A DNA stretch of 64,000 bases from Micromonospora parastrephiae (GTDB lineage Bacteria; Actinomycetota; Actinomycetes; Mycobacteriales; Micromonosporaceae), in the NCBI RefSeq assembly GCF_016802865.1, contig NZ_JAEVHM010000004.1:1-64000 (forward strand), given 5' to 3'. Below are positions 5,056 through 63,650 of the stretch, one piece after another. Below the pieces are notes generated by a model, which was not told the origin of the DNA, did not search any database, and saw only the letters and a program-made list of their open reading frames with translations. The translations under genes were made by a program, and so were the position numbers. How positions within the stretch are numbered: position 1 is the stretch's first letter; the number at the start of each line of letters is the position of its first letter.

Positions 5056-6972
5056 ATGACTGTCCTACCCGCCTCATCGTCTCTCGGCCGCGCCTGGACG
5101 AGGTCCGTCGCTCCGCGTACCCGGGTTGCCGCCGCCCTCGCCGCGTTCGCCGTCATCGGTGGCACCGTCGCGGTCGCCGTCGGGACCTCGTCGCCGGCCA
5201 CCGCCGGACCGGGCACCGTCGTCGTGTCGGAGAACTTCTCGGCCGGGTCGCTTCCCGCTGGCTGGCGCGCCGTGGACGGAACCTGGAAGGTCGAGAACGG
5301 CCGGCTCCACGGGACCTCGGCCGGCTCGGGAGAGAACAACAAGATCACTTTTGGTCGGCACCTGAACGACTTCCGACTCGAGGCGACGATGCGCTTCGAG
5401 ACGGTGTCCGCCGCCACCCGCTGGGCCTCGCTCGGCATCGACGTGCCCGCCGACGGCGCCACCCCGTGGTGGATCGCCACCATGCGCAGCGGCACCACCG
5501 CCGCCAACGGTCTCGAGTTCGCCCAGCGCACCACGGCCAACGCCTGGGTCGTGACCAACACCGCCTCCGCCCCGTACGCCGCCGGGACGGGTCGGGACGT
5601 CCGCGTCGCGGTCGAGGTGCACGGCAACCAGGCCCGCTGGATCTTCGACGGCCGGGAGGTGATGCGCACCAGTAGCCTCCAGCGCTCCGCGAACGGCGTT
5701 CAGGCGCTGTTCGTCAACGGCTCCACCGTCTCGTACGACGACGTCGTCGTCACCGAGCTGCCGGCGAACGGCTACATCCGCCCCGAGGGCAGCCCGCTCA
5801 CCGTGATCGCGCACCGTGGCGCGTCCGCCGTCGCGCCGGAGAACACGCTCGTCGCGCAGGAGATCGCCCGTCGTGGCGGCGCCGACTGGATCGAGAACGA
5901 CGTCCAGCCGAGCAGGGACGGCATCCCGTTCATCCTGCACGACGGCACCGTCGATCGGACCACCGACGGGACGGGCAACATCCGCGACCTGACCGCCGCG
6001 CAGATCAAAACGCTCGACGCCGGTTCCTGGTTCGGCCCGCACTACGTCGGTGAGCGGGTGCCCACTCTGGCCGAGCAGCTCGCCGACCTGCGCACCCGGG
6101 GCGGCAACCTGCTGCTGGAGATCAAGGGCAAGCACACCAGGGACGAGGTCGCCACGATCATCCAGGTGATCCGCGACGAGCAGATGATGGGCCGGGTCTT
6201 CGTCCAGAGCTTCGAGGTCGACGCCCTCAGGTACACCTTCGAGCTCGCCCCGGAGCTGCCGTTGGGCCTGCTGCGCAGCAGCCTCGACGCCGACCCGGTG
6301 GCCATCGCGAGGGAGCTGCACCTGACCGCGTACAACCCGGACGGCAACGCGCTGCTGGCCAAGCCGGAGGTCGTCGCCCCGCTGCACGCCGCCGGCGTCG
6401 CGGTCATGGCCTGGACGATGGACTCCGCCGGCCTGTGGCAGCGGTTGGAGCGGATCGGCACCGACGGGGTCATCACCAACCGGGCGTCCGAGCTGGTCGG
6501 GTGGAATTCCGCCCTCATGCAGCGGGCGTCCGCCGAACCGACCGTGGAGATCACCTCGCCGGCCAACGGGGCGCGGCTCGACCGGGCGCAGTCCCCGGTG
6601 ATCGCGGTCGCCGCCACCGACGCGGAGACCGTCACCGTCACGCTCGACGGCAGGACCTCGGCCTCCGGGCGCAGGCTCGACCTGGCCACGTTGATCGCCG
6701 GCAAGCACACGATCCGCGCCGAGGCCACCGGCCCCGACGGCACCGCGACCGCGACCAGCACGTTCACGGTGACGGTCACCCAGGCCGGTCTCGGCTACCT
6801 GATCCTCACCTCGGGGGCCGACCCGGGCGCGATCACCATGATGGCCACCCGGCTGGCCCACGCACAGTACGCCGAGCTGGCCACCTACGCCGACCGGCAG
6901 GCCGGCAAGCTGGTCCCGGCGGAGGTCGCCAGCGTCATCGCCGCCGACGCGCGGACTCTCGCGCTGAAGTAG
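5056..6972 (+). CDS. Secreted glycerophosphodiester phosphodiesterase with LamG-like and C-terminal FIMAH-like domains
   Basis: An exported enzyme of 638 residues that should hydrolyse glycerophosphodiesters to glycerol-3-phosphate and an alcohol. Residues 1-50 form a signal peptide (ending near SSPATAG); residues about 55-245 are a concanavalin-like beta-sandwich (ENFSAGSLPAGWRAVDG); the GDPD barrel starts at AHRGASAVAPENT (near residue 252), with ENDVQPSRDG and the catalytic LHDGTVDRTTDG; an Ig-like domain (VEITSPANGARL) and a helical FIMAH-like tail follow. Start choice: ATG 5056 directly precedes the signal peptide; an upstream in-frame ATG at 5023 would add 11 residues. No clear ribosome site. 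Monocistronic, closed by a strong hairpin. Confidence 0.88.
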   Translation: MTVLPASSSLGRAWTRSVAPRTRVAAALAAFAVIGGTVAVAVGTSSPATAGPGTVVVSENFSAGSLPAGWRAVDGTWKVENGRLHGTSAGSGENNKITFGRHLNDFRLEATMRFETVSAATRWASLGIDVPADGATPWWIATMRSGTTAANGLEFAQRTTANAWVVTNTASAPYAAGTGRDVRVAVEVHGNQARWIFDGREVMRTSSLQRSANGVQALFVNGSTVSYDDVVVTELPANGYIRPEGSPLTVIAHRGASAVAPENTLVAQEIARRGGADWIENDVQPSRDGIPFILHDGTVDRTTDGTGNIRDLTAAQIKTLDAGSWFGPHYVGERVPTLAEQLADLRTRGGNLLLEIKGKHTRDEVATIIQVIRDEQMMGRVFVQSFEVDALRYTFELAPELPLGLLRSSLDADPVAIARELHLTAYNPDGNALLAKPEVVAPLHAAGVAVMAWTMDSAGLWQRLERIGTDGVITNRASELVGWNSALMQRASAEPTVEITSPANGARLDRAQSPVIAVAATDAETVTVTLDGRTSASGRRLDLATLIAGKHTIRAEATGPDGTATATSTFTVTVTQAGLGYLILTSGADPGAITMMATRLAHAQYAELATYADRQAGKLVPAEVASVIAADARTLALK

Positions 6973-45518: not shown

Positions 45519-46772
45519 TCAGTGGCGGCCGACGAAGATCCCGATGCCGTTGGCGACCGCGCGCTCCGTACCGTCGGAGGGGTTGTTGCGGGCGGTGGCC
45601 GCGGCCTGGCCCGGCTCGCGCACCGCGACCGTGCTCGACCCGCCGCCGTCCAGGTTCACCGCGTCGTCCGCGCCGAGCGTGACCATCAGATCGGCCAGCT
45701 CGGCGATCGTGAAGCCGGCGCTGGCCGGGGCGCGGCCCGCCAGCGCGACGAGGTACACCGTCCCGCCGTCGGCGCTGACACCGGCCGAGCTGCGCACCGC
45801 GGCGGTCCTGGTGTCCAGGCCGGCCAGCGGCTCGCCGTCGCGCAGGATCGGCGCGCCGCCGACTGCGAAGTCCAGCTTCGGATGGCCGGCGGAGACCATC
45901 TTCTCCCGCACCGTCACGCGGTCGCCGACCGCGAAATCGTCGAGCGCGTCCGCGCCACCCTCGCGCCCGACCAGCACCTGGGTGTCGGCGGGGATCGCGC
46001 CCGCGCCGGGGATCTGGCCGACCGAGGTCACCACGCCGCCGCGTACGGTCACCTCGTACGTGTGGGTGCTGCACGGGTCACTGCGGCTCGTGTCGCTGCC
46101 GCAGGTCGACCGGACCCGGGAGGCGGCGCCCCACTCGGAGGTGAACAGGCCGACGCCGTCGACCGGAAGCGCGTACTGGTTGAGGCCGCTGAGGGCGACC
46201 GTGCCCCTGCGGCTGCGCACCTCGCCGTCCAGGCTCAGGGTGTCCACCCGCGCCTTGCCGTTCACGCCCACGCCGAACACGTCCCGGGTCGACGTGCCGG
46301 GAGCGAGCCCGGGGCCGAAACGCTGCGCGTTCGGCACCGCGAACTTCAGCTCGTCGCCGTCGGCGATCTCCGGACCCGAGGAGGAGTACGTCGGCGTGAC
46401 GCCGGTGTGGGTCTCACTGTTGTTGAAGAAGTCCCCGTTCACGCCGGCGATGGCGCCCTGCTCGTTCGTCATCGCCGAGACGACCTGTCGCTGCGCGACG
46501 GCGTCGGGGCGCAGCAGATCGAGGGAGACCTTGTTCCCGCGCAGGTCGGCCGTGAGCAGGTAGCCGACGGTGACGCCGCGTGGCGTGTTCACCTCGAACG
46601 AGCCGTACGTGACGCCCGGGGCGAGCTGCTCGGTCGAGGTGACGGTGATCGGGGTGGCCGCCGTGGAGGTGGACGCGGCGGCGTGGGCGGCGCCGGTCGG
46701 CGTCGCGAGAGTGCTCAGCCCCGCGGCGAGCAGCAGCGCCAGACTCGGGCGTACGAGGTTCGATGGCCTCAT
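45519..46772 (-). CDS. Secreted phosphodiester glycosidase (NAGPA-domain) protein
   Basis: A 417-residue exported protein. Signal peptide to AHAA (about residue 31). The NAGPA fold is marked by AIAGVNGDFFN, LDFAVGGAPILRDGEPL, and DDAVNLDGGGSSTVAV (about residue 367). Family members remove alpha-GlcNAc or similar sugars from phosphodiesters; a role in trimming wall teichoic or sugar-phosphate polymers is inferred. ATG 46772 follows gaaaggagc. A single gene between terminators. Confidence 0.87.
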   Translation of the reverse strand: MRPSNLVRPSLALLLAAGLSTLATPTGAAHAAASTSTAATPITVTSTEQLAPGVTYGSFEVNTPRGVTVGYLLTADLRGNKVSLDLLRPDAVAQRQVVSAMTNEQGAIAGVNGDFFNNSETHTGVTPTYSSSGPEIADGDELKFAVPNAQRFGPGLAPGTSTRDVFGVGVNGKARVDTLSLDGEVRSRRGTVALSGLNQYALPVDGVGLFTSEWGAASRVRSTCGSDTSRSDPCSTHTYEVTVRGGVVTSVGQIPGAGAIPADTQVLVGREGGADALDDFAVGDRVTVREKMVSAGHPKLDFAVGGAPILRDGEPLAGLDTRTAAVRSSAGVSADGGTVYLVALAGRAPASAGFTIAELADLMVTLGADDAVNLDGGGSSTVAVREPGQAAATARNNPSDGTERAVANGIGIFVGRH

Positions 46773-46993: not shown

Positions 46994-47017
46994 CGACGTG
47001 ATCAGGCGTTCGAGCGG

Positions 47018-47994
47018 TCAGAGCCGGGCGTCGCCCGCCGCGGTGGCCTCCTGCACCGCCGAGGTACGACGAACCTCCGCCCGCTCGTCGCCAGCGTCCT
47101 CCCGGTCGCGCCGGCGACCCGGGCCGCCCGGTTGGCGGTCGCCGCCGCCTGGTCACCGGTCACGCCACCGCGGATCCGGTTGTTCGCGGCCACCTGGGCG
47201 GCCGGGTCGTTGCCCGTCGCGGTCAACGAACCGTTGATGACGTTGTCGTCGACGGTGACGCCGCCGGTGGTGCTGGTGACGCTGACGTCCGCGCCCCAGT
47301 AGCTGCCGGAGGCGCAACTGTCGAGAGCGCCGTTCGGGCCCAGCTGCACGCCGCCCAGGTTGCCCGCGAACGTGGCCCGACCGCGGACCGCGCTGCCGCA
47401 GACGACACTGCCGGTGGCGCTGTTGAGCACCGACACGGTGCCGTCGACGAACGAGTCGTGCACGTCGGTGTAGTAGGTGCCGGTGCTGCTGAGGTTGCGT
47501 TCGACCTGCGTGCCGCGGTCGAGTCGGACCTCACCGGCGCCGACGGTGACGTGCCCGGCGATCGTCGACGCCTCGGCGAACAGGAAGCTGTCGATGGTCG
47601 CGGAGCCCTTCGGCCGTACGGTCACGGTGCCGGTACGGGCGTCCTTGAGGAAGACGCCGTACCCGCCGGCGGCCAGCACCACCTGGCCGTCGACGGTCGT
47701 GTCGGTGGCGTCGAGGTAGCCGTCGGCGGCGACGCGTACCTCGCCGCTGACGCGCCCACCGGTCACGACGAGATTGCCGCCGGCGGCGACGGTGACGTTG
47801 CCGGTGATCGTGGTGCCGGTCAGCGCGCAGGACTCGCCGGCCGGCACGTACAGGTCGTTGGGCACGGTCACCGCACCGCCGGTGCCGATGCAGTGGGTGA
47901 CCAGGTCGGCGTGGGCGGTGGGCGCCACGGCCAGCACCGAGGCGGCGACGACGGCGCTCACGGTGGCCAGCTTGGCGACGGTACGTCCGGGCAT
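47018..47994 (-). CDS. Secreted repetitive beta-helix-like protein (frame break near C-terminus)
   Basis: About 325 residues. Signal peptide to ADLVTHC (about residue 30), then short repeated units rich in Gly, Thr and Val (TITGNVTVAAGGNLVVTGG, VSGEVRVAADGYL, VDGQVVLAAGGYG, IAGHVTVGAGEVRL), as in a right-handed beta-helix or polymer-forming bactofilin-like protein. A one-base loss near 47100 shifts the frame; correction gives the charged tail EDAGDERAEVRRTSAVQEAT, ending at 47018. ATG 47994 begins MPGRTVAKLA. It lies 32 bases after the cupredoxin gene, so it is probably the operon's last gene. Function unknown. Confidence 0.7.
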
Positions 47995-48026
47995 CGTTGT
48001 ACTCCCTGTCGATGAGATTCGAGGAC

Positions 48027-49553
48027 TCATGCGCCGACGTCCGATCGGGCCGCGGCCCGGACGATGGCGCCCTGCTGCCGCCGGTTGAGCGTTCCGCCGG
48101 TCACCAGTGCGGCGGTGACCGTCTCGACGTGCCGGACGAAGTCGGCGTGGCCGGGGTAGTCGGCGTTTTCGTCGATCAAATCGTTGATGGTGCAGCCGTC
48201 ACCGGCGTCGACGTTGTCGACCCCGGTGTCGTCACCGCCGATGATCACCGTGGCCCGGGTGTCGGAGGCGGGGCAGGCGTCGGTGCCGTCGGCCACCACG
48301 GTGAACGTCGTGGACTGCTCGGCGGAGGCGTTCCCGGCGGCGTCGGTCGCCCGGTACCGCAGGGTGTGTGCGCCCGGGGCGCGGACGGCGACCGGGGCCG
48401 CGTACGCGGTCCAGCCGCCGGTGTCGAGCGCGTACTCGACCGAAGCCACACCCGAGCCGTCGTCGGTGGCGGTGACGGTCACGGTCGCGGCGCCGACGTA
48501 TCCGCCGTCGTCGTTCCGGTCGCCGGTGACCGTGGCGGACACCGTGGGCGGGGTGTCGTCCTCCTCCGTCGGGGCGACGACGGTGAAGTGAGCCATCTGC
48601 TCGGTCGAGGTGTTACCGGCGACGTCCGTCGCCCGGTAGTGCAGCATGTGCGTCCCGACCCCGGTCACCACGATCGGGTTCGCGTACGCGGTGAAGGCGG
48701 CCCCGTCCAGCGCGTACTCGATGGTGGCGACGCCGGACCCGGTGTCGGTGGCGGTCAGCGTGGCGGTCGCCGTACCGATGTAGTTGCCGTCGCCGTCGCG
48801 GTCACCGGCCAGCGCGGCCTTCACCACCGGCGCGGTGGTGTCCTCCTCCCCCGGCTCGACGATCCGGAACGTCACCGAGCCGACCGCGCTGGTGTTGCCG
48901 GCCTGGTCGGTGGCACGGAACTGCACCGAGTGGTCGCCGACCGCGCTCACCTGCACCGGCTGTGTGTACGGCTGGAAGCTGGTGTCGTCGATCTGGTACT
49001 CGACGGTGTCCACACCCGAGTCGGCGTCGGTGGCCGTGACGGTCACCGTGGCCGCACCGACGTAGTTTCCGTCCTGGTCGCGGTCACCCGACACGGCGGC
49101 GGCGACCGTCGGCGCCGTGGTGTCGCCACCTCCCCCGCCGTCGGTGACCACCAGCTCGCCGACCATCTGGCTGTGACCGGGCATCGTGCAGAAGTAGCGG
49201 TACCGGCCCGGGGTCAGCGTCACGGTCGCCTGGTGGCGGCCGTCGTTGGCGTCGAACGGACTGGCCAGGATGTTGAGGGTGACGTCGTGGTTGTAGCCCT
49301 CGGTGCTGGTGTCGAAGGTCAGCGTGTGCGGCATCCCGGAGGTGTTGCCGGTGGCCGTGCTGTTCTCCCAGATGATCGTCGCCGCGCCGGCCACCGCCTG
49401 GGTGGGCGCGGACTTGTAGCGGGTGATGTCGTCGTCGGCGGTCCAGGTCAGCACCTGGTCCTCGACGAGCGGGGCGGCGGTGGCGGGCGTCGCGGCCAAC
49501 GGGATCACCGTGAGCAGCAGCGCCGACAGCGCAGCCGTGAGTCGTCGGATCAT
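48027..49553 (-). CDS. Secreted cupredoxin with three Ig/OmpL47-like repeats and C-terminal CTINDLID module
   Basis: A 508-residue exported protein. Signal peptide to ATPATAAP; a plastocyanin-like copper domain at about 30-140 with ligands in MPHTLTF (His) and YFCTMPGHSQMVG (Cys, His, Met); three near-identical repeats of about 90 residues (each with TVTATDxxSGVxxxEY and RATDxAGNTS); and a final module of about 82 residues (CPASDTR...GCTINDLID...FVRHV) shared with the next protein upstream. It should carry electrons or copper outside the cell, probably with the laccase or sugar dehydrogenase of the same operon. ATG 49553 lies nine bases from the upstream gene's stop. Confidence 0.87.
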   Translation of the reverse strand: MIRRLTAALSALLLTVIPLAATPATAAPLVEDQVLTWTADDDITRYKSAPTQAVAGAATIIWENSTATGNTSGMPHTLTFDTSTEGYNHDVTLNILASPFDANDGRHQATVTLTPGRYRYFCTMPGHSQMVGELVVTDGGGGGDTTAPTVAAAVSGDRDQDGNYVGAATVTVTATDADSGVDTVEYQIDDTSFQPYTQPVQVSAVGDHSVQFRATDQAGNTSAVGSVTFRIVEPGEEDTTAPVVKAALAGDRDGDGNYIGTATATLTATDTGSGVATIEYALDGAAFTAYANPIVVTGVGTHMLHYRATDVAGNTSTEQMAHFTVVAPTEEDDTPPTVSATVTGDRNDDGGYVGAATVTVTATDDGSGVASVEYALDTGGWTAYAAPVAVRAPGAHTLRYRATDAAGNASAEQSTTFTVVADGTDACPASDTRATVIIGGDDTGVDNVDAGDGCTINDLIDENADYPGHADFVRHVETVTAALVTGGTLNRRQQGAIVRAAARSDVGA

Positions 49554-49561
49554 CGTTTCTC

Positions 49562-52500
49562 CTAGAGTTCCCGCACGCGGATGTTGCGGAACTCGGTCAG
49601 GTCGTTGTCGCCGTGGTTCTGCAAACCGATGAAGCCGCTGAGGAACTGCCGCAGGTCGGTCGGCGGGTCGCCGGCCCGGGAGGACTGCTTGCCCGGCGTG
49701 TTGTCGAACTCGTTGATTACCACGCCGTTGCGGATCATCGTGTAGTGCTGACCGACCACGCGGATCTCGTAGTCGTTCCACTCGTTCTTCGGGGTCACGC
49801 CGGCCTGGGCGAGCGGCACCGGATCGAAGTTGTAGACCGAGCCGGTCTTCTGCGGCTCTCCGGTCTCGCCGTCGTAGATCTGGATCTCGTGTCCGCAGTA
49901 GATCGCCATCCAGGCGGCCGAGGTCCGGGCCGATCCGACCGTGCCGCAGCTGCCCGGTGGCCGCTGCTCCAGTGGGGTTCGCAGGTCCGGGAATCGGATG
50001 AAGACGCCGGTGTTGGCCCGGCCGGTGCCCGGCGCGATGTCCCGGAACTGCAGCTTCAGCGAGAAGTCGGCCAGCTCCTTGGTGTGCCAGAGCATGCCCA
50101 TGCCACCGCTGGAGCGCAGCGATCCGTCCGGCTGGATGCTGAACGAACCCGACGGCGCCTGCTGCCAACCGCGCAGCGACTCGGCCGTGCCGTCGAAGAG
50201 CGGCTCGTACCCGGTGCGCCCGTCGCGGCCGATGTCGGACGCGGCGGCCAGGCGGGTGAGCGTGCCCGATTCGCGGGCGCTGAGCAGTTCGTCGTCCTGC
50301 AACGCGCGGGTCACCGCGGTCACGTGCCGGACGAAGGCGTTGTGGTCGGCCCAGGTGCTCTCGTCGTCGATCAGGTCGTTGATCGTGCAGCCCTGCCCCA
50401 CCGTACGGCTGGGCACCCCGGTGTCCGTGTCGCCGAGCCACACCGTGTCCCGGGCGTCCGGCACCGCGCAGCCCACCGTGACCGTGGTCTGCACCGTCGC
50501 CGTCTCACCGTCGGCGTACGTGACGGTCAGCTTCGCGGTGTAGGTCCCGACCCGGGCGTACGTGTGCCGGGGGTCTGCCTCGGTCGACGTGGCGCCGTCG
50601 CCGAACTCCCACCGGTGGCTGACGCCGCCGGACCGGGAGCCGGTGAAGGCGATGGTCAACGGCTTGTTCTGCACGGCCACCGAGGCCGCGGCCGGCGCCG
50701 GGGTGGGCGCGCCACCGGTGTAGGTGATCCGGATCAGCTTCTGGTTGGGGTGCAGGCTGAAGAACCCGCCTCCGTAGTCCAGCAGGTAGAGCGCGCCGTC
50801 CGGGCCGAACTTGGCGTCCATCCAGCTCTGCAGCCGGGTGTCGCCGTTGCCGCCGGGGATGATGGCCCGCAGCGACTCGGCGTACACCGGAGGTGCGGCC
50901 TGCGGCACGCCGGCCGGGTCGACGGTGACCGCGACCCGGTTGGCCGGGTTCGACTGGTCGCCGATGAGCCACTTGCCGTCCCAGTGTTCCGGCCACGCCA
51001 CGCCGCTGGTGGTGTCGACGAGTTCGCGGTGGTAGGTCGGGCCGGACATGATGGCCTGCCCGCCGCCGCGCAGGTACGGCTGCGTGTAGGTGGCGTCCGC
51101 CGCGACGTAGGTCGGGAGGCCGCTGCCGTCGGTCCGCTTCGGGAACACCGGACCACCGCCGCTCGGCGAGTACCAGATCATGTTGTCCCGGGCCGCCGGG
51201 ATGTCCACCAGGCCGGTGTTGCGCGGTGACTCGTTCTTCAGGTTGTCGCAGTCGTACCAGCCGGTCAGCACCTTGGCGTCGGTGTTGCTGCGGTCCCGGT
51301 ACGGCTGCCGGTTGCCCATGCAGTACGGCCAGCCCTGGTTACCCGCCGAGGTGATGATGGTGGCGGTTTCGTACTTGGCCGGGCCCAGGGTGGGGCTGGG
51401 CGCCGACGCGTCCGGGCCGACCCAGCCGGCGGTCAGCCACTGGTGCACCGGGTCGATCTGGAGTCGGGCGATGTTGCGCACGCCCATCACGTAGATCTCC
51501 GGCCGGGTCTTCTCGGTGCCCGGTGGGAACAGGTTGCCCTCCGGGATGGTGTACGTGCCGTCCGACTCCGGGTGGATCCGAATGATCTTGCCGGCGAGGT
51601 CGTTGGTGTTGCCCGACGTACGCCGTGCGTCCTGGAACGAGATCCCCTGGTACTCCTGGGTCCAGTTGTTGCCGGAGTAGCCCTCCGACCCCTCGGAGGA
51701 GTTGTTGTCGCCGGAGCCGACGTAGAGGTTGCCCTTGGCGTCGAACGCCATGCCGCCGCCGGCATGGCAGCAACTGTGGATCTGCACCGGGAACTGCAGC
51801 AGATCCTTGCGGGTCGCCTGGTCGATGGTCTGCGTCGCGCGGTCGTAGGTGAACCGGGAGATGGTGCGCTGCCCGACGCGCTTCACCCGGTCGATCGACT
51901 CGTGCGGCATCCAGTAGACGTAGAGCCAGCCGTTGTCGGCGAACGCGGGGTCGGGCACGATGCCGAGCAGGCCCTCCTCGTTCTTCACCAGCTCGGATCC
52001 GCTGCCCCGGTTGCCCATCACCTTGAGGGTGGTGAGGAGCTTGACCTGCTTGCTGCGCGGATCCCACGAGTGGATGGTGCCGCAGCCGAGGCCGACGTTC
52101 GGGTCGTTCCAGTCCGCGATCGGGCCACTCGGGCAGGCCGCCTTGCCGACGTAGAACACCGTGCCGTCCGGCGCGATGGTGAGCCCGTGCGGCTCCCCGA
52201 TCTGGTCCAGCTGCCCGGTCTGGTTGGCCGCGGTGAGCCGCTCCACCTTGTAGTTCGCGGCGATCGTCGCCTGGCAGTCCCCGCGTACCCGGCCGGTGGT
52301 CCAGTTGAGAGCTCCGGCCAGGTGCGTGCGGAACGCCTCCTCGCCGTAGCTGCCCTCGGTGTGGCCCATGCCGGTGTAGAACGACCGGCCGCCGTCGTAG
52401 TCCCGACACCAGGACACCGGGTGGAAGGGACCGTTGGCGGCGCCCCGGGTCGTAGTGCCGCTCCTCGACCTGGGCGAGGGTGTGCACGGTGCCGATCGGG

Positions 52501-53522
52501 TTCGGGTCCCAGTTCTCCCAGCGGTCCGAGCGGGTGACCGTCAGCGGCAGCGACGCCGTGGCCGGGTGTTTCCGGTCCAGGATGTCGACCACCGCGCGGT
52601 TCACGGCGGGCGGCGGCGGGGCGGTGGTGTTACCGGTGAACAGGCGCAGATCGGCGAGCTGGACCAGCGGTTCGCCGCTGTTGGCGGTGATGTTCAACCG
52701 GTAGCGGGTGAACTCCTGCGGCGTGGCGATGTCGAACCGGCGGGTCTGGAACCGGTCCGGGAAGCTCTGGCCGGTGCGTCGGTCCAGATCGGACCAGTTC
52801 TGCCCGTCCGTGGAGCCCTGCAGGGTCCAGTCCTTCGGGTCGCGCCCGGCGGAGTCGTTGGCCGACGTCAGCGCGTACCCGGTGATCCGCTTGGCGGCGG
52901 CCAGTTCGTACGCCACCCACGCCGTCGGGGTGCGGACCAGCCACTTGGTGTTGGCGTCGCCGTCGGTCAACTTCTCCTTCGTCTCGTTCGGCGCGTTCTC
53001 GCCGCTGGCGGTCACCCGGGCCACCGGTTCGGCCACCGGGATGGCACCCGCCGGGCGGGTGCCGATGAGGCCGGTGAACCAGGTGGAGTCGACCTGGGCG
53101 CGGGCGGCGTCGGCGATGCCGACGAAACCGCCGCCGGCCTTCATGTAGCTCTGCAGCGCCGACTCCTGGTCGCGGTTGAGCGCGGCGCCCGTCGCGGAAA
53201 GAAACACGACGCTGCGGTACGCCGACAGCCCGGCCGTGGTGAACACACCCGGGTCCGTGGTGGTCGTGACATCGATGTCATGACTGGCACCAAGCTGCCG
53301 GATGGTGTCCGCGGCGCGCGAAACCGGGTCCTGCTGCTCGGCCACCGGCCCGTGGAACACCAGGACCGCGGTCTTCGTCTGCTGTGTCGCCGGTGGTGCC
53401 GCGGCTGCGGTACGCGGCGCGGCTCCCGCCGCCGTTGCCGTTGCCGGGATCAGTGTCGCGATGGCCGCTACCGCGGCGAGGGCTCGTCGTACTTTTCTGG
53501 TCATCCCCGTCCCCACTTTCAT
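49562..53522 (-). CDS. Secreted ThuA / F5-8C / sorbosone-dehydrogenase / PKD / DUF1080 megaprotein (one frame break)
   Basis: About 1,320 residues after removing one extra base in the CCCC run at 52443-52446. Order: signal peptide; ThuA-like domain interrupted by an F5/8C module (ALTSANDSAGRDPKDW); a PQQ-type glucose/sorbosone dehydrogenase propeller (GEPHGLTIAPDGTVFYVG, GNLYVGSGDNN); a PKD domain (WEFGDGATST); the CTINDLID module (50228-50471); and a DUF1080 3-ketodisaccharide hydrolase domain (YEPLFDGTAESLRGW). Together these suggest binding, oxidation and cleavage of a glycan. Start ATG 53522 overlaps the laccase stop (TGATG); ATG 53504 with gggg is an alternative. Confidence 0.85.
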
Positions 53523-54526
53523 CAGCTTCCGTGCGTGTGGGTGTGGCCTTGGAACCGGTGGATCGCCTCTTCGGCGCCCGGTGGCATGCTGCCGTCGGCG
53601 TTGCGGACCAGGAAGATCCCGGCCATGCCGCCGTCGGAGTGGGTCTGCACGTGGCAGTGGTACATCCACGCCCCGGGTCCGACGCCTTCTCCGGCCAGCA
53701 CCTGAAAACCGAACGAACTGCCCGGATTGAGGTCCTTGTTGTCGACGACCAGGCTCGGGTCGCTCGGCCCTTCCAGCATCCCGGTGCGGTTGTCCGCCCA
53801 GCGGTGCGCGTGCAGGTGGAAGGTGTGGAAGAGGTTGCCGTGCCCGATGGCGATCCACTCCACCCGCTGGCCCAGGTTCGCCTCGAACATGGGCGTGTCC
53901 GGTGCCATCCGATTGTTGATCATCATGTCGTGGAACACGGCCGTGAACTGCTTCTCCGGCAGGATGTCGCCGCGGCGCCGCACGATCAACGCCCCGTACA
54001 GGCCCTTCGCGACACCGGCGGTGCCGTGGTCGGTGCCCATGGCGTGATCGTGGTAGTGCCAGTAGCCGGCACTGCCCGGCATGAACCGCCGGCCCGCCGC
54101 GGCGAACATCTCCCGGGAGCGCCAGACGTAGGTGCGCGTCTCGCCGGGATTGTTGAACGAGGCGTTGAGCGGGCTGCCGTCTGATTCGGTGCTGTAGTCC
54201 ACCCCGTGCGGATGGATGGACAACCGTTGGTTGGTGGTGTTGACCAGGGTGATCTCCAGGGTGTCACCCTCGTACATCTCCAGCACGGGCCCCGGCACGG
54301 TGGCCTGGCCGGGTGCCAGGCCGTACCCGAACAGGTTGCCGGGCAACTGCTCGGCGTAGATGGTGACCTTCTTCGTGACGCCGGTGGCGGCCCGGGCCGG
54401 GCTGCCTCCGAACGCGGTGTCGAACGCGGGGCTGGACGCGCCCAGCGCTCCGGCGGCGAGCGCGCCGGTGGTGATCAGGGATCGACGGGACAGATGGCGG
54501 TGAGAGCCAACGGCGTGATCGTCCAT
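53522..54526 (-). CDS. Two-domain multicopper oxidase (small laccase type)
   Basis: A 334-residue oxidase. Tat signal RRSLITTGALAAG; copper ligands in SIHPHGVDY, GYWHYHDHAMG, FHTFHLHAHRW and MYHCHVQTHSDGGM. Two cupredoxin domains and the length match trimeric small laccases of actinobacteria. It oxidises phenols or metal ions with oxygen outside the cell. First gene of a minus-strand operon with the ThuA megaprotein (TGATG overlap), cupredoxin and repeat protein. ATG 54526 (MDDHAVGSH). Confidence 0.92.
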   Translation of the reverse strand: MDDHAVGSHRHLSRRSLITTGALAAGALGASSPAFDTAFGGSPARAATGVTKKVTIYAEQLPGNLFGYGLAPGQATVPGPVLEMYEGDTLEITLVNTTNQRLSIHPHGVDYSTESDGSPLNASFNNPGETRTYVWRSREMFAAAGRRFMPGSAGYWHYHDHAMGTDHGTAGVAKGLYGALIVRRRGDILPEKQFTAVFHDMMINNRMAPDTPMFEANLGQRVEWIAIGHGNLFHTFHLHAHRWADNRTGMLEGPSDPSLVVDNKDLNPGSSFGFQVLAGEGVGPGAWMYHCHVQTHSDGGMAGIFLVRNADGSMPPGAEEAIHRFQGHTHTHGS

Positions 54527-57984: not shown

Positions 57985-58192
57985 CCATCTCACCACGGAG
58001 GGTGCCGTCGTCAATCCCGTCGCGTGTTATGTCGGACGGGGACCAAAACTTTTGTGGAGTTCCTACAACTGAGCGCCGGTTGGTTCGGCGATTGCGCCAT
58101 GGCGCAGCCCGCCGACAGCCGGAAAAGTGATCACTGCCGGGAGTCGTCCACTCGCGGCGCGCAGGTCATGGTCTACCAAAGGGGTCAGTCGG

Positions 58193-61100
58193 GTGTTCAA
58201 CCGTATCGCCATCGTCAACCGAGGTGAGGCCGCGATGCGGCTCATCCACGCGGTCCGCGAGCTGGCTGCGGAGACCGGCGTTCCGCTCGAAACCGTCGCC
58301 CTCTACACCGACGTCGACCGCACCGCCACCTTCGTGCGCGAGGCGGACATCGCCTACGACCTCGGTCCGGCGTCCGCCCGCCCGTACCTCAATCTCGCCA
58401 CGCTGGAGCGCGCCCTGGTCGAGACCGGGGCCGACGCCGCGTGGGTCGGCTGGGGTTTCGTCGCCGAGGACCCGGCGTTCGCCGAGCTGTGCGAGAAGAT
58501 CGGCGTCACCTTCGTCGGGCCGAGCCCGGAGGCCATGCGCCAACTCGGCGACAAGATCGGCTCCAAGCTCATCGCCGAGAAGGTCGGCGTGCCGGTCGCG
58601 CCGTGGAGTCGCGGCGCCGTGGAGACCCTGGACGCCGCGCGGGCCGCGGCGGCCGAGATCGGCTACCCGCTGATGCTGAAGGCGACCGCGGGCGGTGGCG
58701 GACGCGGCATTCGCGTGATCACCAGCGAGGCCGACCTGGACGACGCGTACGAGCGCACCAGCCAGGAGGCGGCGCGGGCCTTCGGCAGCGGCGTCGTCTT
58801 CCTGGAGCGGCTGGTCACCGGCGCGCGACACGTCGAGGTCCAGGTGATCGCCGACGGGCAGGGCACCGCGTGGGCGCTCGGTGTCCGGGACTGCTCGGTG
58901 CAGCGCCGCAACCAGAAGGTCATCGAGGAGTCGGCGTCGCCGGTGCTCGACCGGGCGCAGGCAGCCGAGCTGAAGGCGTCGGCCGAGCGGCTCGCCGTGG
59001 CGGTCGGCTACCGGGGCGCGGCCACCGTCGAGTTCCTGTACCACCCCGGCGACCGGCTGTTCGCGTTCCTCGAGGTCAACACGCGCCTCCAGGTCGAGCA
59101 CCCGATCACCGAGCTGACCACCGGGTTCGACCTGGTCAAGGCGCAACTGCACGTCGCCTCCGGCGGGCGCCTCGACGGCGCGCCCCCGGCGGAGCGTGGC
59201 CACGCCATCGAGGCCCGGCTGAACGCCGAGGATCCCGACCGCGACTTCGCGCCGTCGCCCGGCCGCATCGCACGGCTCGACCTGCCCAGCGGCCCCGGCA
59301 TCCGGGTGGACACCGGCGTCAGCGAGGGCGACACCATCCCCGCCGACTTTGACTCCATGATCGCGAAGATCATCGCGTACGGCCGTGACCGCGACGAGGC
59401 GCTGGGCAGGCTGCGACGGGCCATGGCGAACACCACCGTGATCATCGAGGGCGGGGCGACGAACAAGAGCTTCGTCCTCGACCTGCTCGACCAGCCCGAG
59501 GTGATCGACGCCAGCGCGGACACCGGCTGGATCGACCGTGTCCGCGGCGAGGGTCGACTCGTCGCGCACCGGCACAGCGCTGTCGCGCTGGCGGCCGCCG
59601 CCATCGAGGCGTACGAGGAGGAGGAGCACGTCGAGCGCCAGCGGCTGTTGTCGACGGCCTCCGGTGGGCGCCCGCAGGTGCAGCACGCCAGCGGTCGACC
59701 GCTGGACCTCAAGCTGCGCGGCGCCGACTACCGCACCCGCGTGGCGCGGGTCGACGCGCACCGGTTCCGCGTGGGCATCGAGTCCGGTGGCCTGGTGCGC
59801 ACCGCCGACGTCGAACTCGACCGCTTCGACCGGCACACCGGTCAGATCGTCGTCAACGGCATCCGGTACCGCCTGCTCACCGGCACGTACGGGCCGACGC
59901 ACCTGGTCGAGGTGGACGGTGTCACGCACCGGGTCAGCCGCGACGAGGGTGGCGTCCTGCGCTCCCCCATGCCGGCGCTGGTCGTCGCCACGCCCCTGGA
60001 GATCGGCGACGAGGTCGAGGCGGGCGCGCCGGTGCTCGTGCTGGAGGCCATGAAGATGGAGACGGTGCTGCGGGCGCCGTTCAAGGCGCGGCTCAAGGAG
60101 TGCGCAGTCTCCGTGGGCAGCCAGGTGGAGGCCGGTGCGCCGCTGCTGCGCCTGGAGCCCCTCGCCGACGACGCCGCCGACAGCGCGGACGCCACGGCCA
60201 CCGCCTCGGTCGAACTGGACCTGCCCGCCTCCGCCGAGCAGCTGTCGGCCGACGAGCGCAGCCGCCGTGGTCAGGAGGACCTGCGCGGGCTGCTGCTCGG
60301 CTTCGACGTCGACCCGCACGACGACCGTCGGGTGCTCGACGACTACCTCACCGCGCGCGCGCGGCCACCGAGGACGGTCACCGGCCGCTCGCCGCCGAAC
60401 TCGACCTCCTCAACGTGTTCGCCGACCTCGCCGAACTGAGCCGCAACCGGCCGACCGGCGAGGACGGCGGCGCACACGTGTACAGCGCCCGCGAGTACTT
60501 CCACACCTACCTGCAGAGCCTCGACGTCGAGCGGGCCGGCCTGCCGGACGCCTTCCAGGCCAAGCTCGGCAAGGCGCTCGGCCACTACGGCGTCACCGAC
60601 CTCGACCGCTCCCCCGACCTCGAAGCCGCCGTGTTCCGGATCTTCCTGGCTCAGCAGCGCGCGTCCGCCGACGCCGCCGTCGTCGCGACGCTGCTGCGCG
60701 CCTGGCTGCCGGAGTCCCCGCCGGACGAGACGCTGCGCGAGCCCGCCGGCCTCGCGCTGGAACGGCTGATCTCCGCCACGCAGGTACGCTTCCCCGCCCT
60801 CGCCGACCTCGCCCGCGGCGTGGTGTTCGCCTGGTTCGCCCAGCCGCTGCTGCGCCGCAACCGCGCCCGCGTCTATGCCCAGGTCCGCGCGCACCTGCGG
60901 CACCTGGACGCGCACCCGGACTCGCCCGATCGCGCCGAGCGCGTCGCCGAGATGGTGCGCAGCACCGAACCGCTGGTCCGACTGCTCGGCCAGCGCCTCG
61001 TCCGCGACCACCTCGACAACACGGTCATGCTGGAGGTGCTCACCCGTCGGTACTACGGCAACAAGGCGCTCACCAGCGTGCGCACCCGCGAGGTCGCGGG

Positions 61101-63650
61101 CTGCTCGTTCGTGGTCGCCGAACGCGCGGACTCCAGTGTGGTCTCGGCCGCGGTGAGCTTCGACGCGTTGGACGGCGCCCTGCGCGGGCTCGCCGACCTG
61201 GCCACCGGCGAGGACTCCGTCGACGCCGACATCTACCTCGCTGGGAGAACCAGCCGGAGGACTTTGACGAGATGGCCGCCGCGCTGCACGACGTCATCAC
61301 CGCGCACCCGCTGCCGCCCCAGGTCCGACGGCTCACCGCCACCGTCGCGGGTCGCGGTGGGGCGGTGATGCACCACCACTTCACGTTCCGACCGTCCGGC
61401 ACCACGATGACCGAGGACCGGCTGATCCGCGGCCTGCACCCGTACATCGCCCAGCGGATGCAACTGGAGCGGCTGCACAAGTTCGACCTGACCCGGCTGC
61501 CGTCGTCGGACGAGGAGGTCTACCTCTTCCAGTGCGTGGCGCGGGAGAACCCGGCCGACGAACGACTCGTCGCGTTCGCCCAGGTACGGGACCTGACCGA
61601 GCTGCGCGAGCAGGACGGCCGGCTGGTGGCGCTGCCGACGACCGAGGACGCCATCGCGGCCTGCCTCGACTCGATCCGCCGCGCCCAGTCCCGCCGACCG
61701 TCGAAGACGCGCTTCAACACCAACCGGATCGTGGTCTACGTCTGGCCGCCGAGCGAGCTCACCCGCGAGGAGATGGAGATGATCGCCGGGCGGGTGCGCC
61801 CGACGACCGTGGGCGCCGGGCTGGAGGAGATCCTGTTCATCGCCCGCCAGCGCGACCGCCGCACCGGCGAGCTGACCAAGATCGCCGTACGGATCTCCTT
61901 CGACGCCACCGGCGGCGCGGAGCTGGTTGTCGGCGAACCGCCGGCGGAGCCGGTCGAACCGCTCGACGAGTACCGGCTGAAGGTCCTGCGGGCGAGCAGC
62001 CGCAACACCGTGTACCCGTACGAGCTGACCGGCCGGCTCGGCGACTTCGTCGAGCACGACCTCGACGACGACCACACCCTGGTGCCGGTGGACCGGCCCA
62101 AGGGGCGCAACCGCGCCGCGATCGTCGCCGGGGTGGTCACCGCCCCGACCACGCGGCACCCGCAGGGCGTCACCCGGGTGGTGCTGCTCGGCGACCCGAC
62201 GAAGTCGCTGGGCGCCCTGTCGGAGCCGGAGTGCCGGCGGGTGATCGCCGCCCTGGACCTGGCGGAGCGGCTGCGCGTGCCGCTGGAGTGGTGGGCGTTG
62301 TCGGCCGGTGCCCGGATCTCCATGACCTCCGGCACGGAGAACATGGACTGGGTCGCCGCGGCCCTCAAGCGGATCGTCGAGTTCACCCAGGCCGGCGGTG
62401 AGATCAACATCGTCGTCGCGGGCATCAACGTCGGCGCGCAGCCGTACTGGAACGCCGAGGCGACGATGCTGATGCACACCAAGGGCGTCCTGGTGATGAC
62501 ACCGGACTCGGCGATGGTGCTCACCGGCAAGCAGTCGCTCGACTTCTCCGGCGGCGTGTCCGCCGAGGACAACTTCGGCATCGGCGGCTACGACCGGGTG
62601 ATGGGGCCGAACGGGCAGGCGCAGTACTGGGCGCCGAACCTGACCGCCGCGCGGGACGTGTTGATGTCGCACTACGACCACACGTACGTCGCGCCCGGCG
62701 AGGACGCCCCACGGCGCGCGACGACCACCGATCCACTGGACCGCGACATCTCCACCTTCCCGCACGACGTGGCGGGCAGCGCCTTCGCCACCGTCGGCGA
62801 GATCTTCTCCGCCGAGGCCAATCCGGACCGCAAGAAGCCGTTCGACATCCGTACCGTGATGCGGGCCCTCTCCGACCAGGACCACCCGGTGCTGGAACGC
62901 TGGGCGGGCATGGCCGACGCGGACACCGCCGTCGTGCAGGACGTCCACCTCGGCGGCATTCCGGTCTGTCTGCTCGGCATCGAGTCCCGCTCGGTGCCAC
63001 GGCACGGGTTCCCGCCCACCGACGGCCCGGACACCTACACGGCGGGCACGCTGTTCCCCCGGTCGTCGAAGAAGGCCGCGCGGGCGATCAACGCGGCCAG
63101 CGGCAACCGGCCGCTGGTCGTGCTGGCGAACCTGTCCGGCTTCGACGGCTCACCAGAGTCGATGCGCAAGCTCCAGCTGGAGTACGGCGCCGAGATCGGC
63201 CGGGCGATCGTGAACTTCCGCGGGCCCATCGTCTTCTGCGTGATCTCGCGCTATCACGGTGGAGCGTTCGTGGTGTTCTCCAAGGCGCTGAACCCGAACA
63301 TGACCGTGCTGGCGCTGGAGGGCTCGTTCGCCTCGGTGCTTGGCGGCGCGCCCGCCGCCGCTGTGGTGTTCTCCGCCGACGTCAACGCCCGCACCGCGGC
63401 CGACCCCCGGGTACGCGACCTGGAGGCGCGCGTCGCCGCCGCGGCCGGCACCGGACGGGCCGCGTTGACCGCGGAACTCGACGAGCTGCGCTCCTCGGTG
63501 CGCGCGGAGAAGCTCGGCGAGGTGGCCACGGAGTTCGACCGCGTGCACAACATCCAGCGCGCCGTCGAGGTCGGCTCGGTGGACGCCGTCATCCGCGCCG
63601 CCGAACTGCGTCCGCGCATCATCGAGGCCATCGAGACCCGCCTGGGATAG
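58193..63650 (+). CDS. Single-chain acyl-CoA carboxylase: biotin carboxylase, carrier, central and carboxyltransferase domains (two frame breaks)
   Basis: About 1,818 residues after bridging frame breaks near 60350 (GC-repeat) and 61245. Order: biotin carboxylase with IVNRGEAAMRL and ATP-grasp GGGGRGIRV; biotin-carrier domain with EAMKMET (60046-60066); a central helical region (60400-61300: ELDLLNVFADLAEL, HVYSAREYFHTYL); and a carboxyltransferase with SGARISM and SRYHGGAFVVFSKALNP. All parts needed for acetyl- or propionyl-CoA carboxylation are on one chain, arranged as in eukaryotic acetyl-CoA carboxylase; most actinobacterial enzymes use separate AccA/PccB subunits. GTG 58193 (MFNRIAIVNRG) follows aaagggg. 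Confidence 0.88.

Follow-up and report, generated by a model that had tools for sequence, protein, structure and literature searches.

Which reaction does a secreted small laccase serve when its gene lies against those of a sugar-active protein and a copper electron carrier? The question is raised by a four-gene cluster on the minus strand (47002-54526) of a 64,000-nucleotide stretch of Micromonospora parastrephiae (RefSeq assembly GCF_016802865.1, contig NZ_JAEVHM010000004.1, positions 1 to 64,000), which we refer to as the window. Laccases of the SLAC type entered the literature around 2004, yet what two-domain multicopper oxidases do physiologically is described as poorly understood in the portion of a 2026 paper used here (PMC13151041). 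We found strong evidence that three of the four genes, encoding a laccase, a multidomain protein with ThuA and GSDH domains (ThuA-GSDH) and a cupredoxin, form a conserved core in Actinomycetes whose clustering far exceeds chance. We propose, with a probability of roughly 45%, that the products make up a secreted oxidative glycoside-cleaving system in which electrons taken from glycosides would pass through the cupredoxin to the laccase and on to oxygen.

A protein search of genomes returned 225 related stretches, and the best 80 of these 225, a set therefore biased to close relatives, were compared as loci (L numbers); they come from Micromonospora, Actinoplanes and allies, Saccharothrix, Amycolatopsis, Prauserella, Saccharomonospora, Streptomyces, Nonomuraea, Microbispora, Georgenia and other genera. 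Within the stretch, a laccase was present in 77 of the 80 loci and a cupredoxin in 75; three loci (L118, L127 and L129) have a contig end near their start, and L097 has no cupredoxin. Because the gene caller had overlooked several laccases, genes were counted by tblastn. Among 345 genomes drawn from the class Actinomycetes (E up to 1e-40 for the laccase and up to 1e-200 for the ThuA-GSDH gene), the laccase was found in 46 and the ThuA-GSDH gene in 45, all of them among the 46, so that one genome (G075) had the laccase only and none had the ThuA-GSDH gene only. Fisher's test gave p = 7e-56 for this co-occurrence; like the other linkage counts, this value ignores shared ancestry and is inflated by the relatedness of the genomes.

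All 45 laccase/ThuA-GSDH pairs lie no more than 2.1 kb apart; the two genes are on opposite strands in 27 pairs and share a strand in 18, and only 8 of 56 laccase matches are away from a ThuA-GSDH gene (three in G075 and five second copies). Among 37 genomes of the genus, the laccase (>200 bits) and the full ThuA-GSDH gene (>1500 bits) are confined to the same 15, and 15 of the 16 laccase copies adjoin the latter; the remaining copy (G014) is on a different, short contig, where it neighbours a cupredoxin-type gene of which the contig end leaves the Ig-module part. Because gene order and strand vary, the linkage is more than a frozen operon, and these changes show that it has been maintained through rearrangement. 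Scattering of the genes in related genomes, which would have undone the preliminary description of the cluster, was not seen: in many genera the laccase gene remains grouped with those for ThuA-GSDH and the cupredoxin. That description had treated all four genes as one set; the three-gene core is kept across soil actinobacteria, but the fourth gene, found in 37 of the 80 loci, is accessory, and we rejected the four-gene set as a unit.

Domains have also been exchanged between the two partners of the laccase. In 7 of 8 loci read from one genus (g43), the ThuA-GSDH protein has a length of only 827-859 amino acids, and the shared module described below and the PF06439 domain are on the neighbouring cupredoxin protein; the eighth locus (L135) is without that cupredoxin-PF06439 gene. 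Among Micromonospora of a first clade, the GSDH protein carries PF06439; in a second clade, both proteins do. Because Streptomyces fungicidicus has the same gene order, g43 is probably Streptomyces: there, a LacI regulator, a multicopper oxidase, a ThuA protein and a protein annotated as a family 16 glycoside hydrolase follow each other, the 809-amino-acid ThuA-GSDH gene preceding an Ig-PF06439 gene in whose product Pfam scored no cupredoxin. The swapped form does not represent all of Streptomyces, since seven other Streptomyces loci (L101, L103, L104, L106, L111, L114 and L132) have the long ThuA-GSDH-PF06439 form and a divergent cupredoxin. LacI regulators are near the laccase in 3 of the 8 g43 loci and in the S. 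fungicidicus record, a 927 kb plasmid (p1; L188) on which protocatechuate dioxygenase genes lie about 6.6 kb from the cluster. The movement of PF06439 between proteins is an argument for a joint action of cupredoxin, PF06439 and GSDH.

The first gene in the window (53522..54526, minus strand) encodes a two-domain (small) laccase with a twin-arginine translocation (Tat)-type signal and Cu-oxidase_2/3 domains in Pfam. Its nearest relatives in a PDB sequence search are 3t9w (E 2.8e-133), 9ix9, 8aip and 4m3h; 3cg8, which we take to be the Streptomyces coelicolor enzyme, follows at E 6.9e-107. When the positions of the 12 T1/T2/T3 copper ligands are assumed to be those of SLAC, all 12 are present in the window laccase, and the set is complete in 71 of 77 loci; this scoring is based on alignments, and loci without a match (three for the laccase and five for the cupredoxin) are outside the counts. 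One aligned ligand His is substituted in the laccases of L116, L125, L129, L130, L104 and L117 (four Trp, one Gln and one Tyr), which may reflect alignment slips or altered sites. Published primers for the laccase of Catenuloplanes japonicus (CjSL) match L087 exactly, at positions 6926 and 7946, so that a characterized laccase is located in such a neighbourhood.

The cupredoxin gene (48027..49553, minus strand) encodes Copper-bind and Ig-like domains in Pfam, with three Ig-like (OmpL47-type) repeats and a C-terminal module. The cupredoxin domain itself (49143..49457) has the type-1 copper ligands H76, C122, H127 and M130, and this His-Cys-His-Met set is complete in 75 of 75 aligned cupredoxins. 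The module, of approximately 80 residues with a GCTINDLI motif, is common to the ThuA-GSDH and cupredoxin proteins (first copy at 50222..50470 in the former, second at 48033..48275 in the latter). It has two invariant Cys and consists of strands followed by two helices; it has no Pfam family, no Pfam family recurs on it among 36 members, and a Foldseek search with the cupredoxin model, in which matches to repeat proteins dominated, did not identify it.

The ThuA-GSDH gene (49562..53522, minus strand) is in two frames in the assembly. Its first open reading frame (P0001) holds the N-terminal half of ThuA (53010..53366; residues 57-175) and an F5_F8_type_C domain inserted into ThuA (52677..53015; residues 174-286); the C-terminal part of ThuA follows in P0003 (52298..52435; residues 3-48). 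Further downstream are a GSDH-type beta-propeller (50711..52270; model residues 58-577), a PKD domain (50474..50695), the first module copy and a PF06439 domain (49571..50212). Pfam agrees with the preliminary domain calls for the laccase, for this ThuA/F5-8C/GSDH/PKD/DUF1080 protein and for the cupredoxin with Ig repeats, DUF1080 being PF06439, which is now named '3-keto-disaccharide hydrolase'.

To the earlier interpretation we add a putative link to 3-keto-glycosides, involving PF06439, ThuA and an additional TIM barrel. The PF06439 domain scores 120.4 bits against a Pfam cut-off of 26.8, and its fold matches 8v31, 9fbe, 8rr2 and 8tda are structures of 3-keto-glycoside eliminase/hydratases or hydratases. 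According to the part of the source used here, PF06439 proteins have been reported or proposed to be hydrolases of 3-ketotrehalose and 3-ketolactose, in the latter case together with LacABC (PMC9007349). We also scanned 115 loci, seven of them duplicates, for a PF01261-type TIM barrel. Matches were present in 23, and we counted the 14 in which the gene is within 220 bp of the laccase on the same strand (1-219 bp); the other five matches outside the count are farther off or on the opposite strand, and those in L117, L144, L146 and L151 were set aside as probable cross-hits of a mis-called seed. Where named, the 14 loci belong to Micromonospora, Planosporangium and Amycolatopsis, and 13 of the 14 proteins show a readable twin-arginine signal. 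Pfam was run on five of the 14 and on L078, in which ThuA-PF06439, TIM-barrel and GSDH genes are just upstream of the laccase. In Agrobacterium tumefaciens, putative sugar phosphate isomerases are a TIM-fold 3-keto-glycoside eliminase and a proposed hydratase, as stated in the text available to us (PMC10628242), and the PF01261 barrels of our loci would be members of the same family. Together, PF06439 and the laccase-side barrel point to 3-keto-glycoside chemistry.

The best structural matches of the propeller are pyrroloquinoline quinone (PQQ)-dependent sugar dehydrogenases (3a9g, Z 32.5, root-mean-square deviation 3.1, 332 residues aligned), and a comparison with soluble glucose dehydrogenase (sGDH) gave a Foldseek E-value of 9.4e-17; the model of the C-terminal piece of the gene product has a mean predicted local distance difference test (pLDDT) score of 74.6, with low values around the active site. 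The residues E155, H226, R322-N323 and G353-P354 are the same in all 36 aligned sequences and, P354 aside, line up with Glu, His, Arg-Asn and Gly in enzymes of the 3das/2ism type. Their equivalence to the catalytic His, the Arg-Asn pair and the Gly-Pro calcium loop assumes the ligand numbering that we take for sGDH. At the active-site His, all 80 loci have the motif HSCCH (residues 222-226 of P0003; window 51764-51778). In a comparison set of L158, L159, L161-L163, L168, L169, further paralogs and 3das, from which the misread L160 and L164-L166 were left out, GSDH paralogs mostly have CCHxGG without the first His, and L023 has no CC; among the sequences compared here, no member without a linked laccase showed the first His.

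In the system that we propose, the GSDH propeller would dehydrogenate a glycoside, with C3 of the sugar as the most likely position, and PF06439, aided by ThuA and in some lineages by the exported PF01261 TIM barrel, would then cleave the 3-keto-glycoside by elimination and hydration. The cupredoxin would accept the electrons and hand them on to the laccase for the reduction of oxygen to water, and the F5/8C, PKD and Ig domains and the shared module may bind the substrate or hold both proteins together. A copper electron chain from sugar to oxygen is the best reading of the cluster that we can infer. A bolder version, which we consider unlikely, would place actinobacterial small laccases, as terminal oxidases, at the end of an extracellular respiratory chain that uses only copper and takes its electrons from the secreted oxidation of glycosides at C3; the propeller might then be free of PQQ and rely on HSCCH, with its two vicinal Cys and an extra His beside the catalytic one.

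Several observations weigh against the proposed electron chain. The preliminary description regarded missing PQQ- and calcium-binding residues in the dehydrogenase as fatal to its interpretation, and the check was divided: the His, Arg-Asn and Gly-Pro positions stood, but the last-blade Arg-x-Arg, which we take to be a PQQ contact, is absent from ThuA-GSDH proteins wherever the stretch is readable, an xMD replacing the RLR of 3das. Because the global profile alignment loses register past a GNxGWP motif, this comparison was made by motif; MD is present at this place in 77 of 80 loci (L091, L092 and L110 were unmatched by the pattern), and several GSDH paralogs had no motif match. PqqC was not detected in 41 of 45 cluster genomes; it was above the cut-off in 6 of the 345 class genomes, four of them among these 45, so that PQQ, if used, would usually come from outside. 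PqqE was above the cut-off in 0 of 101 genomes of the genus, a search without a positive control in which weak matches below the cut-off occurred in all 101 and in 14 controls. Synthesis of PQQ by the same cell is thus unsupported, and because Arg-x-Arg is absent and 41 of the 45 cluster genomes have no PqqC, the label 'quinoprotein' is unproven. The Hedgehog-interacting protein, to our knowledge not an enzyme, matches the propeller as well (Z 28.0). Furthermore, C3 specificity is suggested by domain families, and most of the 115 loci, the window cluster included, gave no TIM-barrel match. One locus (L121) has a ThuA-GSDH gene with neither laccase nor cupredoxin nearby, and three (L144, L146 and L151) have tandem two-domain laccases and a cupredoxin on the other strand with no ThuA-GSDH gene in the stretch. 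In these three, the two copper proteins manage without ThuA-GSDH, which argues for laccase and cupredoxin as the closest pair. The L146 stretch starts at a contig end, and the L144 genes have ROK, Rrf2, DNA-glycosylase and endonuclease/phosphatase-type genes as neighbours.

Some of these points would fit a propeller that is a non-enzymatic scaffold for binding carbohydrates or partners, like the Hedgehog-interacting protein, so that only ThuA, PF06439 and the copper proteins react. The missing Arg-x-Arg, the scarcity of PqqC in cluster genomes and the fold match itself speak for such a scaffold. We consider it improbable, however: none of the 36 sequences deviates at the catalytic His, Arg-Asn, Glu or Gly-Pro positions, and the fungal enzyme CcSDH is PQQ-dependent despite the absence of several PQQ-binding residues, as far as the consulted part of that study goes (PMC4133262). 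The possibility that ThuA-GSDH-PF06439 acts on plant or lignin-carbohydrate material and frees a phenolic aglycone deserves more weight, although we doubt it: the laccase would oxidize or polymerize the phenol, and the cupredoxin would be an acceptor for the dehydrogenase or a copper donor. In the excerpts that we used, SLAC oxidizes 12 of 23 substrates tested, including caffeic acid, quercetin and kaempferol (PMC3918160), and a SilA-negative mutant of Streptomyces ipomoeae solubilizes less straw lignin (PMC5675413). The protocatechuate dioxygenase genes beyond the S. fungicidicus cluster would also fit, but pca genes were seen in that one record only, and such a role creates no need for a cupredoxin kept beside the laccase at loci whose stretch has no ThuA-GSDH gene, such as the three with tandem laccases. 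Those same pairs are what would be expected if laccase and cupredoxin served to store, oxidize or deliver copper at the cell surface, next to a sugar-active protein with a related physiological trigger, and copper binding or metal homeostasis has been offered as a possible role of another two-domain oxidase, judging from the part of the paper used (PMC13151041). Such a role in copper handling is highly unlikely in our view, because it is opposed by the near-perfect co-occurrence with ThuA-GSDH and by the fusion of PF06439 to the cupredoxin in g43.

In the titles and abstract openings of the open-licence papers searched, this gene set was not described. The laccase resembles SLAC-like two-domain laccases (S. 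coelicolor SCO6712, PDB 3t9w and CjSL) in sequence, ligands and Tat-type signal, but the covered parts of that literature do not describe a ThuA-GSDH/cupredoxin neighbourhood. The propeller shares its fold, His, Arg-Asn and Gly loop with PQQ aldose dehydrogenases (3das, 3a9g, 2ism and sGDH) and fungal AA12 enzymes, from which it differs by xMD in place of Arg-x-Arg, CCH at the active-site His and a length of approximately 520 residues with long inserts. Two sugar-oxidizing pathways are also close to the cluster. In the lactose 3-dehydrogenase pathway of LacABC and PF06439, as outlined in the portion of the source considered, exported sugar oxidation is likewise followed by a proposed PF06439 cleavage (PMC9007349), but the dehydrogenase is LacABC, whereas here a GSDH propeller takes that place, either on the same protein as PF06439 or on a neighbouring one, and cupredoxin and laccase adjoin. 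The GlycDH-OGE-HYD operon of A. tumefaciens similarly combines oxidation with elimination and hydration by TIM barrels, the counterpart here being the TIM-barrel gene by the laccase in 14 loci; GlycDH, however, is a flavoenzyme of another kind, and the available text mentions no copper proteins (PMC10628242). The cluster would be a variant of extracellular 3-keto-glycoside metabolism, for which the electron chain is a good working proposal.

Regarding the locus itself, our reading agrees with the arrangement given previously for the four minus-strand genes: the ThuA-GSDH gene starts at 53522 and overlaps the laccase end via TGATG, and spacers of 8 and 32 bases separate it from the cupredoxin gene and the latter from the fourth gene (ATG 47994). 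The export signals assigned to the four proteins were read by eye. The multidomain protein had been described as one intact product, which does not hold for the window: the frame changes near 52441-52443 at a small indel relative to five aligned relatives, and relatives have a single open frame (1326-1569 codons), in 15 loci from 14 other genomes of the genus. Because the fourth gene and a carboxylase-like gene (58091-61466) are also in two or three frames relative to relatives, a sequencing error is the likeliest cause, and a sequencing or assembly error is probably to be preferred over decay; the three genes suggest that the assembly is indel-prone around the cluster. Programmed frameshifting is disfavoured by the single frame in relatives and by the two other frame-shifted genes nearby.

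The fourth gene (47002..48030, minus strand) encodes an exported protein, previously described as beta-helix-like, that matched no Pfam family and whose C-terminus is frame-shifted relative to relatives; the previous low coordinate of the cluster, 47018, is its stop in the frame of the relatives. A possible alternative start, ATG 48030, overlaps the cupredoxin stop, and the reading frame also begins on the cupredoxin stop in many relatives. Directly downstream of the cluster is a gene for a secreted protein (45519-46772) with a DGGGSSTVAVR stretch, which we take to be typical of phosphodiester glycosidases. On the other side, the carboxylase-like gene is of the biotin-dependent type; compared with its counterpart in Micromonospora sp. 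ALFpr18c (L053), it is spread over three frames.

The linkage names two likely partners and a substrate class for the laccase and, as far as we know, provides the first concrete lead to the natural role of SLAC-type laccases. In these actinobacteria, the small laccase may burn off electrons taken from glycosides, which, if true, would give the 3-keto-glycoside pathways known from recent work a further branch, one that relies on copper and reduces oxygen.

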